Assembly (NCBI GenBank): GCA_937906765.1
Contig: CALCUV010000025.1
Location: 1-15,281 of the forward strand
Direction of reading: 5' to 3'
Length of the DNA: 15,281 bases
Source: an uncultured Prevotella sp.
GTDB lineage: Bacteria > Bacteroidota > Bacteroidia > Bacteroidales > Bacteroidaceae
Below are positions 3,345 to 13,322 of the stretch, piece after piece. The notes below the pieces were generated by a model. The model had not been told where the DNA came from and searched no databases. It saw nothing but the letters and a program-made list of their open reading frames with translations. The position numbers and the translations under genes were made by a program. Every line of letters starts with the position of its first letter. Positions within the stretch are counted from its first letter, which is position 1.

Positions 3345-4649
3345 ATGAACGAAGATACGCTTATCGACTTGGGAGTGCCTACAGCAACCCCCTCTATCAT
3401 AAAAGTAATCGGTGTAGGTGGCGGTGGTGGTAACGCCGTGAACTATATGTATCGCGAAGGAATCCACGACGTCAACTTTGTTATCTGTAACACCGACTCA
3501 AAAGCCCTTCAAGACTCTCCAATTCCCGTTCGCTTGCAATTAGGAAGCGAAGGTCTCGGAGCAGGTAACCGTCCGGAACGCGCAAAAAACGCTGCCGAAG
3601 AAAGCATTGAGAGCATCCGAAACATGCTTAACGATGGCACAAAAATGGTATTCATCACCGCCGGAATGGGTGGCGGTACGGGCACCGGAGCAGCACCAGT
3701 AATTGCACGCGAAGCAAAGGCAATGGACATTCTTACCGTAGGTATTGTCACCATTCCTTTCCTTTTTGAAGGCGCACGTAAGATTGACCAAGCTCTTGAC
3801 GGTGTAGAAGAAATTGCGAAGCATGTAGATGCCCTTCTTGTTATTAACAACGAACGCCTTCGCGAAATCTATCCCGACCTTAACGTACTTTCTGCCTTCG
3901 AACGCGCAGATAATACCCTCTCTGTGGCAGCGCGAAGCATTGCTGAGATTATCACGATGCACGGGGTAATTAACCTTGACTTCCGTGACGTATGTACGGT
4001 GCTCAAAGACGGAGGTGTGGCCATCATGTCAACGGGTTATGGCGAGGGAGAGAATCGTGTGACGGCGGCAATCCAAGATGCGCTCCACTCTCCGCTGCTT
4101 AACAGCAACGACATCTTTAACTCGAAGAAGGTATTGCTCTCTATTTCATTCTGTGCCCAACATGAAGGCGACACTTTGATGATGGAAGAAATGAATGAGG
4201 TGCATGAATTCATGGGACAGTTCCGCGAAGATGTCGAAACGAAATTTGGTCTTTCTGTTGACTCTTCTCTTGGCAAGAAGGTGAAGATTACGATTCTCGC
4301 AACCGGATTTGGCATCACCAATGTGCCTGGCATCAAGGAAAAACTGGATCTTGAGGAACAGGAACGCTTGCGCGAACTCGAGGAAAAGGCGGAAGAAAAC
4401 GATATCCGTCGCGAACTCTTCTACGGACCTAACGATAGCAAGGGCACAAGCAAGAAACGCCCCAAGGTTTACCTCTTTGGCATCGAAGACCTCGACAACG
4501 AAGAAATCATCTCTTTGGTGGAAATCACACCCACTTACAAACGCACAAAGGAACAACTCAACGACATCAAGGCAAAAGTTGAAGGCGCGATGATTATTGA
4601 GCCCGAGACGTCTGCAATTGACATGAGCAGTCCCATCTCCTTTACTTAG
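3345..4649 (+). CDS. ftsZ: Cell division protein FtsZ (copy 1, canonical position)
   Basis: FtsZ is the tubulin-like GTPase that polymerises into the cytokinetic ring. The 434 residues show the N-terminal nucleotide loop VGGGGGNAV (24-32), the tubulin signature GGGTGTG (109-115), and the T7 loop NLDFRDV (210-216) with both catalytic aspartates. The C-terminal region is unusual: a charged helix (about 334-356) is followed by a structured-looking segment, KVYLFGIEDLDNEEIISLVE, then PTYKRTKEQL and a short tail ending SSPISFT. I see no clear canonical IPAFLR-type docking peptide. This copy directly follows ftsA, the usual place in Bacteroidales, so it is probably the ancestral housekeeping FtsZ. 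A full paralogue lies 133 bp downstream. Confidence 0.97.
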   Translation: MNEDTLIDLGVPTATPSIIKVIGVGGGGGNAVNYMYREGIHDVNFVICNTDSKALQDSPIPVRLQLGSEGLGAGNRPERAKNAAEESIESIRNMLNDGTKMVFITAGMGGGTGTGAAPVIAREAKAMDILTVGIVTIPFLFEGARKIDQALDGVEEIAKHVDALLVINNERLREIYPDLNVLSAFERADNTLSVAARSIAEIITMHGVINLDFRDVCTVLKDGGVAIMSTGYGEGENRVTAAIQDALHSPLLNSNDIFNSKKVLLSISFCAQHEGDTLMMEEMNEVHEFMGQFREDVETKFGLSVDSSLGKKVKITILATGFGITNVPGIKEKLDLEEQERLRELEEKAEENDIRRELFYGPNDSKGTSKKRPKVYLFGIEDLDNEEIISLVEITPTYKRTKEQLNDIKAKVEGAMIIEPETSAIDMSSPISFT

Positions 4650-4782: not shown

Positions 4783-5991
4783 ATGCTCGACGATTCACTC
4801 ATCCAAATAACGGCCCCTGCCACCAACACCTTGATTAAAGTTATCGGGGTGGGAGGTGGTGGCGGTAATGCCGTAGCCAACATGTATAATGACGGGATGT
4901 ATGACGTGAGTTTCTTGGTTTGTAACACGGATAAGAAAGCCCTTGACGACTCCCCCATTCCTTCGCGCATCCAATTCGGACCAGGGTTGGGAGCAGGTGG
5001 CAAACCCGAAATCGGCAGACAGTTGGCCGAGAGAGAAGAATCCTTAGCCGCCATTTATGATGCCATTGACAAGGAAACAAGAATGGCATTCATCACCGCA
5101 GGTATGGGTGGCGGCACAGGAACTGGGGCAGCGCCCGTTGTGGCACGCGAAGTGAGAGCACGCGGCATTCTCACCGTGGGCATTGTTACGCTCCCCTTCC
5201 TTTTTGAAATGCGAAAGCAAATCGACAAGGCCCTTGACGGACTGGAGGAATTGACGAAGGAGGTGGACTCACTCATTGTTATTAACAACGAACGCATGCT
5301 TAGCGTTTACCACAACAAGAGTGTGGTGGATGCCTTCCAATCTGCTGACCGCACACTCACAAATGCCGTGCGCAGTGTGGTAGATATTATCAAAATGCAC
5401 GGAGTTATCAACCTTGACTTCAATGATGTGAGCATGGTGCTCCGAGAAGGGGGCATCTGTGTGATTTCTACGGGCATGGCACGCGGAGATAATCGCATCA
5501 CAGCCGCAATCCACAACGCCCTAAACTCTCCCTTGCTCAACCAAAACGACATCTACACGGCGCGTCGCATGGTTATGTGCATCTCTTTCCCTGAAACTCA
5601 CGACTCGCTCCAAATGAATGAACTGGCTGAGGTAAACGAATTCATCGATGGCTTTAAGCGCAAGGATTTGGAGTATAAGTGGGGACTTGCAAAGGATGAT
5701 TCGCTTGACGGAGACGTGAAGGTGACGATTATAGCCTCAGGTTTCGGTCTCGTTCAGGAAGATGTTGAGGAGGATTTGGAAGAAGGCATCAATCGCGACG
5801 AACTTCGCAACAGGTATTACGGAAAGACGCTTAAGCCTCGCTCGAAACCGCGCACTCCTGTTTACATATTCAAACCCGAAGATCTGAACAACGAACTGCT
5901 CATTGACCAAATAGAAGCGATTCCTACGGCACGCCGCTCGCGCGAACAGTTAGTCAAACTCAAGGAATTTACGCAACAACCAACCGCATAG
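4783..5991 (+). CDS. Second FtsZ paralogue, tandem duplicate
   Basis: This is a complete tubulin/FtsZ-family GTPase of 402 residues, clearly homologous to the 434-residue FtsZ just upstream. It keeps VGGGGGNAV (23-31), GGGTGTG (109-115) and the T7 loop NLDFNDV (210-216) with both catalytic Asp residues, so GTP binding and hydrolysis should be intact. Core segments align without large gaps. The C-terminal region is shorter: it shares the VYIFKPEDLNNE and PTARRSREQL segment with copy 1 but stops soon after, lacking copy 1's last ~20 residues. Third codon positions differ widely between the copies while codon preference is similar, which suggests an old resident duplication. It lies between ftsZ and yqeY, which are often neighbours. 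Its role, as second ring component or regulator of copy 1, is unknown. Confidence 0.93.
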   Translation: MLDDSLIQITAPATNTLIKVIGVGGGGGNAVANMYNDGMYDVSFLVCNTDKKALDDSPIPSRIQFGPGLGAGGKPEIGRQLAEREESLAAIYDAIDKETRMAFITAGMGGGTGTGAAPVVAREVRARGILTVGIVTLPFLFEMRKQIDKALDGLEELTKEVDSLIVINNERMLSVYHNKSVVDAFQSADRTLTNAVRSVVDIIKMHGVINLDFNDVSMVLREGGICVISTGMARGDNRITAAIHNALNSPLLNQNDIYTARRMVMCISFPETHDSLQMNELAEVNEFIDGFKRKDLEYKWGLAKDDSLDGDVKVTIIASGFGLVQEDVEEDLEEGINRDELRNRYYGKTLKPRSKPRTPVYIFKPEDLNNELLIDQIEAIPTARRSREQLVKLKEFTQQPTA

Positions 5992-7453: not shown

Positions 7454-7527
7454 GGGCTTATAGCTCAGTTGGTTAGAGCAACGGACTCATAATCCGGAGG
7501 TCCTTGGTTCAAGCCCAAGTTGGCCCA
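7454..7527 (+). tRNA. tRNA with anticodon CAT (elongator Met or lysidine-type Ile2)
   Basis: A complete 74-nt cloverleaf is visible: D arm GCTC/GAGC, anticodon loop CTCATAA with anticodon CAT at 7488-7490, T arm CTTGG/CCAAG with loop TTCAAGC, discriminator A at 7527. CCA is not encoded. The loop is not that of an initiator tRNA. The same loop occurs in elongator tRNA-Met and in tRNA-Ile2, whose C34 is modified to lysidine by TilS, and I cannot separate them by eye. The acceptor stem has a T6-T67 mismatch and a T5-G68 wobble, and the anticodon stem an A27-G43 mismatch. The gene has its own promoter and terminator. Confidence 0.93.
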
Positions 7528-7529
7528 CA

Positions 7530-7611: not shown

Positions 7612-7711
7612 TTAGACAGAAGAACAGAAGGACATAAGCATGAAAGGGAATGGACGTACTCCTACTGCCTTACAATCAAAAATAACTTTGTGCTTATGTT
7701 CTTATGTCTAA
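7612..7711. repeat. Octad-periodic inverted element, copy B1
   Basis: The left arm TTAGAC is followed by 8-bp units AGAAGAAC (7618), AGAAGGAC (7626) and ATAAGCAT (7634). The right arm has the complementary units GTGCTTAT (7690) and GTTCTTAT (7698), then GTCTAA. The left arm has one more octamer than the right. The central region contains TAACTTTG (7683-7690), a -7-like motif without a matching -33. The outer 19 bases of the right arm match those of element B2. Confidence 0.75.
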
Positions 7712-7755
7712 ACCCACCCAGCACCTGCTCACAGCGCAATCTGGCATCCCTCTCA

Positions 7756-7812: not shown

Positions 7813-7876
7813 AATTTTGCGCATTAGGCGTTACTGTTTTCAGAGAGAAGTAGAAAAGGCGGATGGTGTCGATTTG

Positions 7877-7973
7877 TTTAGACAGAAGAACAGAAGAACA
7901 AAAGAACTTTTTGGGGGATAAGAGCAGTAAGAAAACACCTATCCCCTTTTGTTCTTATGTTCTTATGTCTAAA
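7877..7973. repeat. Octad-periodic inverted element, copy B2
   Basis: The left arm TTTAGAC continues with AGAAGAAC (7884), AGAAGAAC (7892) and AAAAGAAC (7900). The right arm has CCCCTTTT (7943), GTTCTTAT (7951), GTTCTTAT (7959) and GTCTAAA. An inner GGGGATA (7914-7920) pairs with TATCCCC (7940-7946). As in B1, left-arm units carry G (AGAAG) where the complement of the right arm carries T (ATAAG), so the arms share the same mismatch in both elements. Confidence 0.78.
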
Positions 7974-8102: not shown

Positions 8103-9488
8103 CTATCCAAACAGTTCGCGCAGGGCATGTTCTACGCGGGCTACTGGAACGAGTTCGATGTTGTATTGCTTAGGGTCGATTGACTTCATGTTAGCCTCGG
8201 GCAAGAGGAAGCGGCGGAAGCCTAACTTTTCAGCCTCAGCAATGCGTTGAGCAATGCGGTTGACGGGGCGTATTTCTCCGCTCAGCCCTACTTCTCCCGC
8301 CATACATACATTACGCTCAATCGCCGTATCTACGTTACTTGAAAGCACTGCAGCAATAACCGAAAGGTCTATGGCAGGGTCGCTCACGCGGATGCCTCCT
8401 GCGATGTTGAGAAAGACGTCCTTCTGAACAAGTTTAAACCCTACGCGCTTCTCCAAGACGGCAAGAAGCATGTTTAAGCGGCGAAGGTCGAAGCCTGTGG
8501 CAGAACGTTGGGGCGTTCCGTAAGCAGCAGTGGAAACTAAGGCTTGCGTTTCGATAAGGAAGGGGCGAACGCCTTCGATGGCAGCAGAAATGGCGATACC
8601 TGAAAGTTCTTCTCCGCTCTGCGTGAGGAGTAAGCCCGAGGGATTATCTACGGGGCGTAGTCCGTCAGCGTTCATTTCGTAGATGCCAATCTCAGAGGTG
8701 GAACCGAAACGGTTTTTAATGCTGCGCAAAATGCGATAGAAATAGTGGCGGTCGCCTTCAAATTGCAAGACAGTATCAACAATGTGTTCCAAAACCTTAG
8801 GTCCGGCGATGCTTCCCTCCTTCGTGATGTGGCCAATGAGAATTACGGGCACGTTGCTCTCTTTGGCATACTTCAAGATGGCGGCTGCACACTCGCGAAT
8901 CTGAGTGACGCTACCGGGTGAGGATTCTACGGTCTCGGTGGCGATAGTCTGTATGGAGTCAATGATTACAAGTCCAGGCTGAGTGTTCTTAATGTGCGTG
9001 AAGATGGCTTCAAGATTCGTTTCACACACAAGGAGGCAGTCGGAAGGTTCTTGCGTGATGCGGTCAGCGCGTAGTTTTATTTGGCGTTCGCTTTCTTCGC
9101 CGCTCACATAGAGTATGCGGCGCTCCTTCATGGCGAGCACGGTTTGCAATAAGAGTGTAGATTTCCCGATACCGGGTTCTCCGCCCAACAGAATGAGCGA
9201 CCCGGGCACGAGTCCGCCACCTAAAACGCGATTTAACTCAGCGTCGTGGGTGTCAATGCGAGGTTCTTCTTCTGCCGACACGTTACGCAGCGCAACGGGT
9301 TGCGTACGCTGACCGTCAAGTCCCGTCAAGGCATGACGCGCTTGGACTTCGGCTTGGCGAGAAGAAGCATTGTGAATGCGGAGTTCCTTAAACGTGTTCC
9401 ACTGTCCGCAAGCCGGACATTTCCCTTGCCATTTAGGAGATTCCTGTCCGCAATGTTCACAGACATATACTGTTTTATCTTTGGGCAT
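8103..9488 (-). CDS. radA: DNA repair protein RadA
   Basis: RadA (Sms) is a RecA-like ATPase and helicase that promotes branch migration of recombination intermediates and helps process stalled forks. The 461 residues show the N-terminal zinc finger CEHCG...CPAC (Cys10, 13, 24, 27), Walker A GEPGIGKST (103-111), the RadA-specific KNRFG motif near 260, and a Lon-like C-terminal domain ending LRELFG. The start at 9488 was chosen because MPKDKTVYVCEHCG is the typical family N-terminus; the frame extends upstream to 9551 only through the octad repeat and is unlikely to be translated. It lies 112 bp downstream of mutS on the same strand and is followed by a good terminator. Confidence 0.95.
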   Translation of the reverse strand: MPKDKTVYVCEHCGQESPKWQGKCPACGQWNTFKELRIHNASSRQAEVQARHALTGLDGQRTQPVALRNVSAEEEPRIDTHDAELNRVLGGGLVPGSLILLGGEPGIGKSTLLLQTVLAMKERRILYVSGEESERQIKLRADRITQEPSDCLLVCETNLEAIFTHIKNTQPGLVIIDSIQTIATETVESSPGSVTQIRECAAAILKYAKESNVPVILIGHITKEGSIAGPKVLEHIVDTVLQFEGDRHYFYRILRSIKNRFGSTSEIGIYEMNADGLRPVDNPSGLLLTQSGEELSGIAISAAIEGVRPFLIETQALVSTAAYGTPQRSATGFDLRRLNMLLAVLEKRVGFKLVQKDVFLNIAGGIRVSDPAIDLSVIAAVLSSNVDTAIERNVCMAGEVGLSGEIRPVNRIAQRIAEAEKLGFRRFLLPEANMKSIDPKQYNIELVPVARVEHALRELFG

Positions 9489-9494
9489 AAGTCT

Positions 9495-9600
9495 CTTTAA
9501 GGTTTTGAGGTGATGAGGTTTTAAGGTGATGAGGTTCTGTCCGGTCTGCAAGTCTTAAACCCTTAAAACCTCATCACCTAAAAACCTAAAAACCTATTTA
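9495..9600. repeat. Octad-periodic inverted repeat filling the mutS-radA gap
   Basis: The left half (9495-9534) is five 8-bp units: CTTTAAGG, TTTTGAGG, TGATGAGG, TTTTAAGG and TGATGAGG. An 18-bp centre (9535-9552) follows. The right half (9553-9600) is six units such as CCTTAAAA, CCTCATCA and CCTAAAAA (twice). A perfect 19-bp inverted repeat links 9508-9526 with 9561-9579. The right half stops exactly at the mutS stop codon (9601), and the left begins 6 bp from the radA ATG. Transcribed RNA would fold strongly just before the radA start. Confidence 0.85.
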
Positions 9601-10446
9601 CTACTTCCCCGTTACAATACGCTTCAGCGTGTCCAACTTATTAAGCGCCTCCATGGGGGTAAGGTTGTTGATATCTACCTGAAGCAGTTCGTCGCGTATT
9701 TGCATCAGAACGGGGTCATCAAGTTGGAAAAATGAAAGTTGGGTACTTCCCGAGGCAATGGTGTCAGACATTTGTTGCACAGCCTCTGCTGGACTTCCAT
9801 TTGCATGATTACGTTCCAGTTGTTTAAGTACAACTTCCGAGCGGTCAACTATTGTACGCGGCATTCCTGCCATTCTTGCCACGTGAATACCAAAGGAATG
9901 TTCCGAACCTCCTCTCATAAGTTTGCGCAAGAAAATAACTTTGTTGCCCGACTCCTTAACCGAGACGTTAAAGTTTTTAACGCGCGGATAAAGTTCTTCC
10001 ATTTCGTTGAGTTCATGGTAGTGAGTGGCAAAAAGAGTACGCGCAGGCGCCACAGGGTTTTCGTGAAGGTATTCTACAATAGACCAAGCAATAGATATCC
10101 CATCGTAAGTGCTCGTTCCGCGCCCAAGTTCGTCAAACAAGACTAATGAGCGCTCCGTGATGTTATTCATAATATTCGCCGCCTCACTCATTTCCACCAT
10201 AAAGGTACTTTCACCCACAGAGATATTATCACTTGCGCCCACACGAGTGAAGATTTTGTCCACCACACCGACACGTGCGCTTTCGGCAGGCACAAACGAA
10301 CCGATTTGAGCGAGAAGCGTGATGAGTGCAGTCTGACGTAGGAGCGCCGATTTACCTGCCATGTTCGGCCCAGTGATAATGATAATCTGCTGACTGGTAG
10401 TGTCGAGATGGACATCGTTAGCGATGTATTCCTCACCCACTGGCAT
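9601..10446 (-). CDS. mutS: MutS C-terminal part: ATPase and dimerisation domain
   Basis: This open part of 281 residues follows the nonsense codon and has an ATG six bases after it. It holds the whole MutS domain V: Walker A GPNMAGKS (26-33 of this part), Walker B with DELGRGTST (105-113), and FATHYHEL, followed by the usual C-terminal end ([14 protein letters not shown]). The ABC-type ATPase is complete but lacks the mismatch-binding and clamp domains. Whether it is made as a separate protein is unknown; no Shine-Dalgarno sequence was seen before its ATG. Confidence 0.75.
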
Positions 10447-10452
10447 GAGCGT

Positions 10453-12225
10453 TTAAATTACGGGGTGGCGACCCTGAACGATATCTAAGGACATTGTTTC
10501 GTCAACTACGGGGCGCACATAGCGATGGAGTGCCGCCACATGGGCTAATGAATGAAGGCAATCGAGAGTGGAGAGCGCACGAGCGTTACGCTGGAGCAAG
10601 GCAATGAAACCAAGGGCGTATTGTGCAAGTTCGTTGTAGAGGCGGGTCTCAAGTGCAAGAATGCGATCCTCAGCACCGAGGATTTTTTCCTCATATTCCT
10701 TCAACTCTTGGGTAATGTAGCGCTCGGCTTGGGCTAATGTTTGCTTGCGAATCCATTCGGCGGGCACATTATCCTTATACGTGTTGCGCACTTCGATATA
10801 GTAACCAAACACATTGTTGAAGCCTATCTTCAAACTGGGAATTCCCGTCTGCTGACTCTCACGTTGTTGCATCTGCAGGAGATAGTCTTTTCCCGATGTG
10901 GAAATGGCGCGTAAATCATCAAGTTCTTCGTTTACCCCAGCGCCAATTACGCCTCCCTTAGCTACTAACGCGGGTGGGTCAAGGCGAAGATCGTGGAGTA
11001 TTCGAGACCTAAGTTCCTCGCAACAATCAAGACGGAGCCCTAACTGGCGAATAAAGTCATCAGACGTATTCGCGCAGGCTTCTTTTAGGCGTGCAACGCT
11101 ATCAAGGGCAATTCGCAGTTGCTGCATTTCTCGAGGATTGACGCGCCCTACTGCTACTTTTGAAACAATGCGTTCCAAATCGCCAATTCTTTCTAACTCC
11201 TGCTGACAAAGGTCACGAAAATCGGGTTGTCGGAAAAAACATTCTACGCCGTTCTGTCGTTCTTCGATTTCTCGAACGGAACGAAGGGGGAACATGAGCC
11301 ATCTGCTGAGCAAACGTGCTCCCATCGGTGTGAGCGTATGGTCAATAACGTTGAGCAACGACCTTCCGCCCTCGTTCATCGGGCGAACGAGTTCAAGGTT
11401 GCGAGTTGTAAATTTGTCTAAACGTACGTAGCGCTCTTCCTCAATAGGCTGGAGGCGCGTAATGTGGGAAACCTGTGTGTGCTGGGTCTGTTCCAAGTAG
11501 ATGAGAATGGCACCTGCTGCCACCGTAGCGGCTTGAAGATGCTCCACACCGAAACCCTTGAGATTCTTGACGTCGAAGTGTTTCAGGAGTTTCTCACGCC
11601 CCGTTGTGTCATTGAAAGCCCAGTCGTCGAGTTCGAAGATAAAGTATTTCGCTCCGTAAAGTCCCACGAAGCGGTCCTTACGTCCGCGCTCCACCAATAC
11701 TTCCTTTGGTGCAAACCCGCCTAAGAGTTTGTCGATAGTCTCAGGCGTGCCCTCGGTGAGCAGAAATTCGCCTGTAGAGATGTCTAAAAGGGAAAGCCCA
11801 ACGGCAGTTTTTCCGAAATGCACGGCAGCCAGGAAGTTGTTTTCGCGACTTGTCAACACATTGTCGGCAATCGCTACGCCTGGAGTTACGAGTTCGGTGA
11901 TGCCACGCTTTACAAGTTTCTTCGCCAACTTAGGGTCTTCCAATTGGTCGCAAATGGCGACACGATAACCTGCTCTGACAAGGCGCGGCAAGTAAGTGTC
12001 GAGCGCATGATGGGGAAAACCGGCCATTTCTGTCTGTGTGGTCGTTGCGCTTTTGCCATTGTTACGACGCGTCAAGGTGATGCCGAGCACCTGAGCGGCA
12101 ATCACGGCATCATCACAGTAGGTTTCATAGAAGTCTCCGCAACGAAACAGCAACACAGCGTCAGGGTGTTTCGACTTTAAGTCGTAAAACTGCTTCATCA
12201 TCGGGGTTAATTCTTCTTTCGCCAT
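10453..12225 (-). CDS. mutS: MutS N-terminal part: mismatch-binding, connector, core and clamp domains
   Basis: This 590-residue open part starts at an ATG typical for MutS ([17 protein letters not shown]). The mismatch-reading Phe-X-Glu motif is present as GDFYE (F32, E34). Domains I to IV follow without a gap, and the part ends at GRHPVI, immediately before the conserved Glu and about 25 residues before the Walker A motif. Alone it could not hydrolyse ATP or signal to MutL. It lies 65 bp downstream of pdxB. Confidence 0.85.
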
Positions 12226-12290: not shown

Positions 12291-13322
12291 TTAGCATTCG
12301 CGGCGCAAGGGATAGTCGCCACGAAGTTTTTCAAAATTTTCGGGATGTGCCTTTAGGACTTCACTATCTCGAAGGGGATTGTAAAGACGTAGGGGAGAAT
12401 CGGGCGCCACCGCCATTTCGGGATAATAGGAAAAGCCTTCGGGGAGCGCAGGTGCGGAAACCTCAAAGGTAACCTCCTTATTGAAATGACGGGCTACGGC
12501 CTCAAGCGCCATGCGTGTGCCATTCGCCTTGCCGTCTGCCGAATAACCGGCAATATGGGGCGTTCCGAGAAATACCTTACGGAGCAATTCGCGATTGATT
12601 GCGGGTTCGTTTTCCCAGGTATCAATAACCGCCGCACTCACCCACCCTTCGTCGAGCGCCTGACTCAGGGCCGCGCCATCAACCACCTCTCCGCGCCCCG
12701 CATTTATCAAAATAGGGCGACGCTTTAAGCCTTTGAGGAAAGCGGCATTCACAAGGTGATGCGTGGGATGCGCACCGTCCATGACAAGAGGCGTATGAAT
12801 CGTAATCACATTACATTCCGCTTGCAACTGTGAGAGCGAAGCGGCATGCTTTGCGAAATCCGCCTCCTTTTCAGCCCTTGGGGGGTCATTCAGAAGCACA
12901 CGGCAACCCATACGTTCCAATCGCTCCACCACACGTCGGCCTACGTTGCCCACACCTACGACTCCGACGGTGCAATCCGAAAGTTCAACCTTCCCTTCTT
13001 TCGCAAGGAGGAGCAGGGATGTCTCTACATATTGCGCCACACTCGTTGCGTTACACCCAGGACAGTTTGTCCAGGCAATATCCGCCTCACGCAGGTAGTC
13101 AACATCCAGATGGTCAAAACCAATCGTAGCGGTGGCGATAAACTGCACCTTAGCGCCTTCGAGCAATGCCTTATTGCACAAAGTGCGTGTGCGCGTAATG
13201 AGCACATCTGCCTCACGCACATCCTCAGCCGTGATTTTCGCACCGGGAAGATAGACCGTCTCACCCAACTTCTCGGCTTCGCCACGGATGAAAGGTATTT
13301 TGTCGTCGATGATGAGTTTCAT
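12291..13322 (-). CDS. pdxB: 4-phosphoerythronate dehydrogenase PdxB
   Basis: PdxB oxidises 4-phospho-D-erythronate to 2-oxo-3-hydroxy-4-phosphobutanoate, the second step of the DXP-dependent pyridoxal phosphate pathway, in the cytosol. The 343 residues show the D-2-hydroxyacid dehydrogenase fold: ATIGFDHLD, the NAD-binding VGVVGVGNVGRRVVERLERMG, and catalytic residues Arg in NAGRGE, Glu in WENEP and His in TPHIAGYS. TPHIAGYSADGK is characteristic of PdxB. The short C-terminal region fits the small dimerisation domain. The ATG overlaps the stop codon of the DUF3108 gene by one base (TAATG), indicating translational coupling. Confidence 0.94.
   Translation of the reverse strand: MKLIIDDKIPFIRGEAEKLGETVYLPGAKITAEDVREADVLITRTRTLCNKALLEGAKVQFIATATIGFDHLDVDYLREADIAWTNCPGCNATSVAQYVETSLLLLAKEGKVELSDCTVGVVGVGNVGRRVVERLERMGCRVLLNDPPRAEKEADFAKHAASLSQLQAECNVITIHTPLVMDGAHPTHHLVNAAFLKGLKRRPILINAGRGEVVDGAALSQALDEGWVSAAVIDTWENEPAINRELLRKVFLGTPHIAGYSADGKANGTRMALEAVARHFNKEVTFEVSAPALPEGFSYYPEMAVAPDSPLRLYNPLRDSEVLKAHPENFEKLRGDYPLRREC

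Follow-up and report, generated by a model that had tools for sequence, protein, structure and literature searches.

Mutators are present in bacterial species at varying prevalence and, according to a review, are more prevalent in clinical than in environmental populations (PMC8875331). A hypermutator due to a mutS nonsense mutation has already been reported in Bacteroidota: the Elizabethkingia anophelis outbreak isolate CSID 3015183688, whose mutS nonsense change is itself one of the transversions that arose on a mutY-defective background (PMC5458099). The locus described here lies on a contig of an uncultured Prevotella sp., in a stretch of 15,281 nucleotides that was analysed as a whole (hereafter, the window). 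Like the Elizabethkingia case, it is a mutS nonsense change in a member of Bacteroidota, apparently recent and private to one isolate. However, hypermutation in CSID 3015183688 was shown by a long branch and by the mutation spectrum among many isolates, whereas the window is known from one contig. A natural interruption of mutS, there with mutator consequences, is also described for Vibrio splendidus 12B01; in that case the interruption is an excisable mobile element that works as a switch (PMC5296598), while in the window there is no insertion, and one codon only is affected. We found no report of a mutS mutator in Prevotella-like bacteria in the open-licence literature, searched by titles and the starts of abstracts, and a search for split or truncated MutS, also by title and abstract start, returned no paper on split MutS. 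The case is ordinary: it is nothing new in kind and gives no pointer to a new type of system.

The mutS frame is on the minus strand, from an ATG at 12225 to a TAG at 9601, and comprises 874 codons. Translation revealed a sole internal stop in it, a TAA at codon 591 (10453..10455, minus strand). The stop divides the frame into a 5' part of 590 codons plus the stop (10453..12225, minus strand), in which the Pfam profiles of MutS domains I, II, III and IV are matched, and a 3' part of 281 codons counted from the first ATG past the stop (9601..10446, minus strand), which holds the whole of Pfam MutS domain V, the ATPase (profile positions 1-188 of 188). Six bases (10447..10452, minus strand) separate the stop from this in-frame ATG, which is a possible re-initiation point. 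Domains I-V are encoded in order, but not in one protein, since the stop parts I-IV from V. In the alignment with Escherichia coli MutS, piece 1 (the 5' part) ends at residue 588 and the match of piece 2 (the 3' part) begins at 593 (593-852). Both pieces are MutS by the NF003810 model, with scores of 632 and 361 bits. Set against the model cut-offs, piece 1 is above that of NF003810 (632.4 vs 480) and below that of TIGR01070 (557.3 vs 641.7); piece 2 alone is below both (360.5 and 333.7, respectively). The column of codon 591 is Glu in all 120 of the best listed full-length homologues, and the next one is Thr, again in 120 of 120. The original prediction had described the same anatomy, namely a frame open from 12225 to 9601 save for one TAA, a conserved Glu at that codon, and pieces of 590 and 281 residues with an ATG six bases past the stop; the translation, the homologues, and the list of open reading frames together with the Pfam domains bear it out. 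In piece 2, the GPNMAGKS motif, which we take to be Walker A, and a further stretch of 12 residues are intact, as judged by the runs of invariant columns across 25 aligned sequences, the window among them. The fold predicted for piece 2 alone, from a shallow alignment of 25 sequences, was uninformative (mean pLDDT 48.1). The adjoining genes, radA downstream of mutS (8103..9485) and a pdxB-like 2-hydroxyacid dehydrogenase gene upstream (12291..13322), both on the minus strand, are open.

Intact relatives of this gene were found, all with a sense codon at the position of the stop. The nearest genome found in the genus search (G026, from the same genus as G002, Prevotellaceae bacterium Marseille-P2826) is that of a sister species with an intact mutS, located at L091 5283-7904 on the minus strand. 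Its product is 96% identical to P0001, an intact protein of 874 residues from a cluster of 191 members, which in turn is 97% identical to the window over piece 1. The window frame differs from the G026 protein at 40 of 874 positions, counting the stop, and from P0001 at 35. Both intact proteins are like the window frame in length (874) and align to it without gaps; unlike it, they have no stop. Given the equal length and the gapless alignment with the sister gene (874 codons in each), the frame with its stop is not a chance arrangement. At the DNA level, identity between the window and G026 is 82% in mutS and 75-87% in the remaining long matches. Two further proteins, P0121 and P0122, both encoded on contigs of about 1 kb, are 99% and 96% identical to piece 2. 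The genome contigs searched for close relatives gave none above 71% protein identity among the 80 loci listed, the window had no megablast match to phages, and an exact 23-base pattern had no match in viral contigs; G026 emerged from the genus search alone. It had been proposed that reads or sibling strains with GAA at this codon would expose the stop as an assembly or sequencing error. Relatives with a sense codon do exist; however, they belong to different species or are known from short contigs of no known date, and these comparisons show the stop to be private to this contig, which falls short of showing an error.

The protein sequence beyond the stop is as conserved as that before it. In the comparison with G026, dN values of 0.038 for the part preceding the stop and 0.039 for the part following it (dS, which is saturated, is 1.22 and 2.26) point to no relaxation after the stop. 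Piece 2 differs from the intact P0121 at 2 of 281 residues (611 and 824). If piece 2 had been freed of constraint since the stop arose, it would have accumulated at most ~0.01 substitutions per non-synonymous site (Poisson 95% upper bound, with the number of sites approximated), a minor part of its divergence from the sister species. Since piece 2 is undecayed by this measure, the stop must be very young or not real. The claim that the event is recent is therefore backed both by the dN values and by the P0121 comparison. Other counts of residues on the two sides of the stop are less consistent. Window-specific residues polarised by G016 alone number 10 before and 1 after the stop, while a comparison of six sequences gives 8 residues before and 8 after the stop that only the window has, the count after the stop exceeding those of four of the five other sequences (3, 1, 18, 5 and 0). 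All 8 of these residues beyond the stop recur in P0121, a protein without the stop, and so predate the stop. As the two before/after counts disagree, the age rests on the P0121 comparison, and not on the before/after contrast. In the stretch 570-593, not counting the start codon that forms its first residue, the window and P0121 are distinguished by 4 residues in addition to the stop. In a broader comparison, lineage-specific residues summed over 13 gene stretches (two of them from mutS) amount to 126 in the window and 146 in G026, suggesting that the window lineage is not evolving fast; the one clear exception is ftsQ (21 window-specific residues vs 10 specific to G026). The window is without acceleration, yet a very young mutator would show none.

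Conservation of piece 2 as strong as in functional copies is also what would be expected if the TAA stemmed from an error in sequencing or in the assembly consensus, or from a minority variant carried into that consensus, with the living cells having an intact mutS. We regard this as a serious contender, if somewhat short of an even chance. A single substitution is enough to make the stop, and intact copies exist at 97% (piece 1) and 99% (piece 2) identity. In addition, the window differs at residues 63, 577, 578 and 652 from five homologues that agree with each other, and the two window-private residues 577 and 578 are no more than 15 codons away from the stop, which would be consistent with a minor local misassembly. 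Since T577 is also found in 6 and M578 in 23 of the 120 listed relatives, we read this cluster as ordinary variation, although a small local assembly problem may be the alternative. Against an error, the rest of the window is clean, with no N and with the other genes open (murC is cut by the window edge). Moreover, stop-making substitutions are 3.7% of those possible in mutS (293 of 7857), and an isolated nonsense codon is not the commonest type of error.

The frequency of broken mutS in related assemblies bears on both readings. Of the 399 genomes sampled from the family, 375 had a mutS match at 1e-120 (149 from the family listing, 11 from the genus search, and 215 from three further listings of 76, 68 and 71). 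All counts given here cover these 375 genomes, the rows of all of which were inspected; matches cut at contig ends or N runs span only part of mutS, and one second match of G266 was unlisted. A lone in-frame nonsense codon in mutS was found in none of the 375. Nonsense in mutS is by this count a rare event, and the same zero speaks against an error, as it limits the rate of nonsense errors no less than that of nonsense mutations. Frameshifts inside a contig, away from N runs, were found in four of the 375 (G126, G315, G372 and G376), so that mutS is apparently broken by frameshift in about 1% of the family assemblies; these four may be natural mutators or sequencing errors. The stops in the mutS genes of G126 and G376 fall past their frameshifts. 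The frameshifted genes (L101 in G126, L102 in G376, L103 in G372 and L105 in G315) are hit at different places. Other incomplete matches are beside N runs (G403, G382) or at contig ends (G157, G317, G153, G319), and the remaining short ones (G114, G313, G323, G409 and some slightly shortened) were judged by coordinates only. The survey, with its four frameshifts and no lone nonsense codon, provides a rough measure of broken-looking mutS in species-level assemblies, errors included. Within the genus, 53 of 58 genomes have a near-full-length mutS, none with an internal stop, and a second full-length MutS was found in none of these 58. The remaining genus matches were of three kinds: to the ATPase region at 25-31% identity, to a short N-terminal stretch (about 100 residues), or fragments from the ends of mutS itself. 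The short matches to the first ~100 MutS residues, the domain I region (G006:C1:2400761-2401042, G022:C5:2353-2619, and similar ones in G011, G029 and G058), are in open frames apart from mutS, some of only 108 and 128 codons, and are perhaps stand-alone domain-I-like proteins.

The original prediction had also raised the possibility that the stop is tolerated, and had left open a split MutS. In such a system, translation would terminate at the TAA and resume at the nearby ATG, six bases further along; alternatively, piece 2 would have a start of its own. The two pieces would then assemble. The ATG is indeed near and in frame, and piece 2 has the whole Pfam domain V with no decay; the youth of the stop, however, explains the undecayed sequence equally well. 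Five of the 120 listed C-terminal MutS pieces (P0125, P0126, P0132, P0135 and P0195) begin at residue 594, that is, at the same Met. These five are ~74-77% identical and thus from other species, one of them on a 159-kb contig, and the 120 pieces as a whole have many different starts, from residue 385 to 594, as cut-off genes do. The Met at 594 is kept in all 120 of the best listed full-length homologues; the ATG thus encodes a long-standing residue of MutS and gives no sign of a new start. Upstream of the stop, the promoter scan gave one weak site (10505-10478, 9/12, with 0.2 expected by chance) of sigma-70 pattern, a pattern that is presumably not the Bacteroidota promoter type. Apart from the anatomy and this weak site, the five pieces that begin at 594 are the only hint of a split. 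The start also lacks an A at -3, but carries one at -12 and another at -13. In Flavobacterium johnsoniae, an A at -3 is reported to favour initiation, and A at -12 and -13 to help as well (PMC6847099). Among 11 other starts compared, A at -3 was found in 4, two of those 11 coordinates not being at a start codon. Finally, the family survey showed no split at codon 591 in any of the 375 genomes that had a mutS match. A functional split MutS has accordingly little support, and we consider it improbable; that re-initiation at the domain IV/V boundary yields two polypeptides serving as a working or tunable split mismatch-repair ATPase is, if anything, a shade more doubtful.

Conservation on both sides of the codon would also be seen if the TAA were read as an amino acid, by readthrough or under a changed code. 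However, of 11 other genes compared, 8 terminate in TAA, including murC, ftsQ, ftsA, yqeY and the pdxB-like gene, which makes a changed genetic code very unlikely, and no homologue examined has a stop at this position. We give decoding of the TAA practically no chance.

The explanation that we put at even chances is that an ordinary mutS has very recently acquired a nonsense mutation, with loss of mismatch repair and a transient mutator state; such a knock-out is a familiar route to the mutator state in bacteria. The observation is true and its recency supported, and a real null allele is about as likely as an error. In favour of the null allele, the 874-codon frame is open apart from this one lesion, and broken mutS recurs in the family (the four in-contig frameshifts, though these are possibly errors); against it, all homologues compared at codon 591 carry a sense codon there (the 120 listed full-length ones, P0121 and P0122). 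As the record reads, the stop stands before domain V, and the lesion takes away an essential part of MutS. A MutS without domain V cannot bind ATP. If the base is real, the product would end after domain IV without the ATPase domain, and from general knowledge of MutS the allele would be null: no working mismatch-repair clamp would form, which would leave the cell without mismatch repair and make it a transient mutator. The mutator state is a fair inference on that premise. It would then be another natural mismatch-repair mutant, in a Prevotella-related bacterium and caught almost at its origin, which would help to estimate how often such bacteria turn mutator, rather than reveal a new mechanism.

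The window has other features of note. A palindromic repeat (9496-9595, with arms of 31 nt that are 94% complementary) lies between mutS and radA, and has many copies on other contigs of G026 and G016, being an interspersed repeat of these genomes. A second repeat family, inverted and direct (7876-7973, and 7678-7713), is near a tRNA gene and has matches on several G026 contigs; the tRNA is a tRNA-Met (CAT) at 7454-7528 on the plus strand. Following murC, ftsQ and ftsA, there are two complete tandem ftsZ genes (3345-4649 and 4783-5991), both with PF00091 and PF12327. The second is less conserved with respect to G026 (80%, vs 90% for the first). An adjoining FtsZ pair on one contig was found in 36 of the 58 genus genomes, so the tandem is widespread there.
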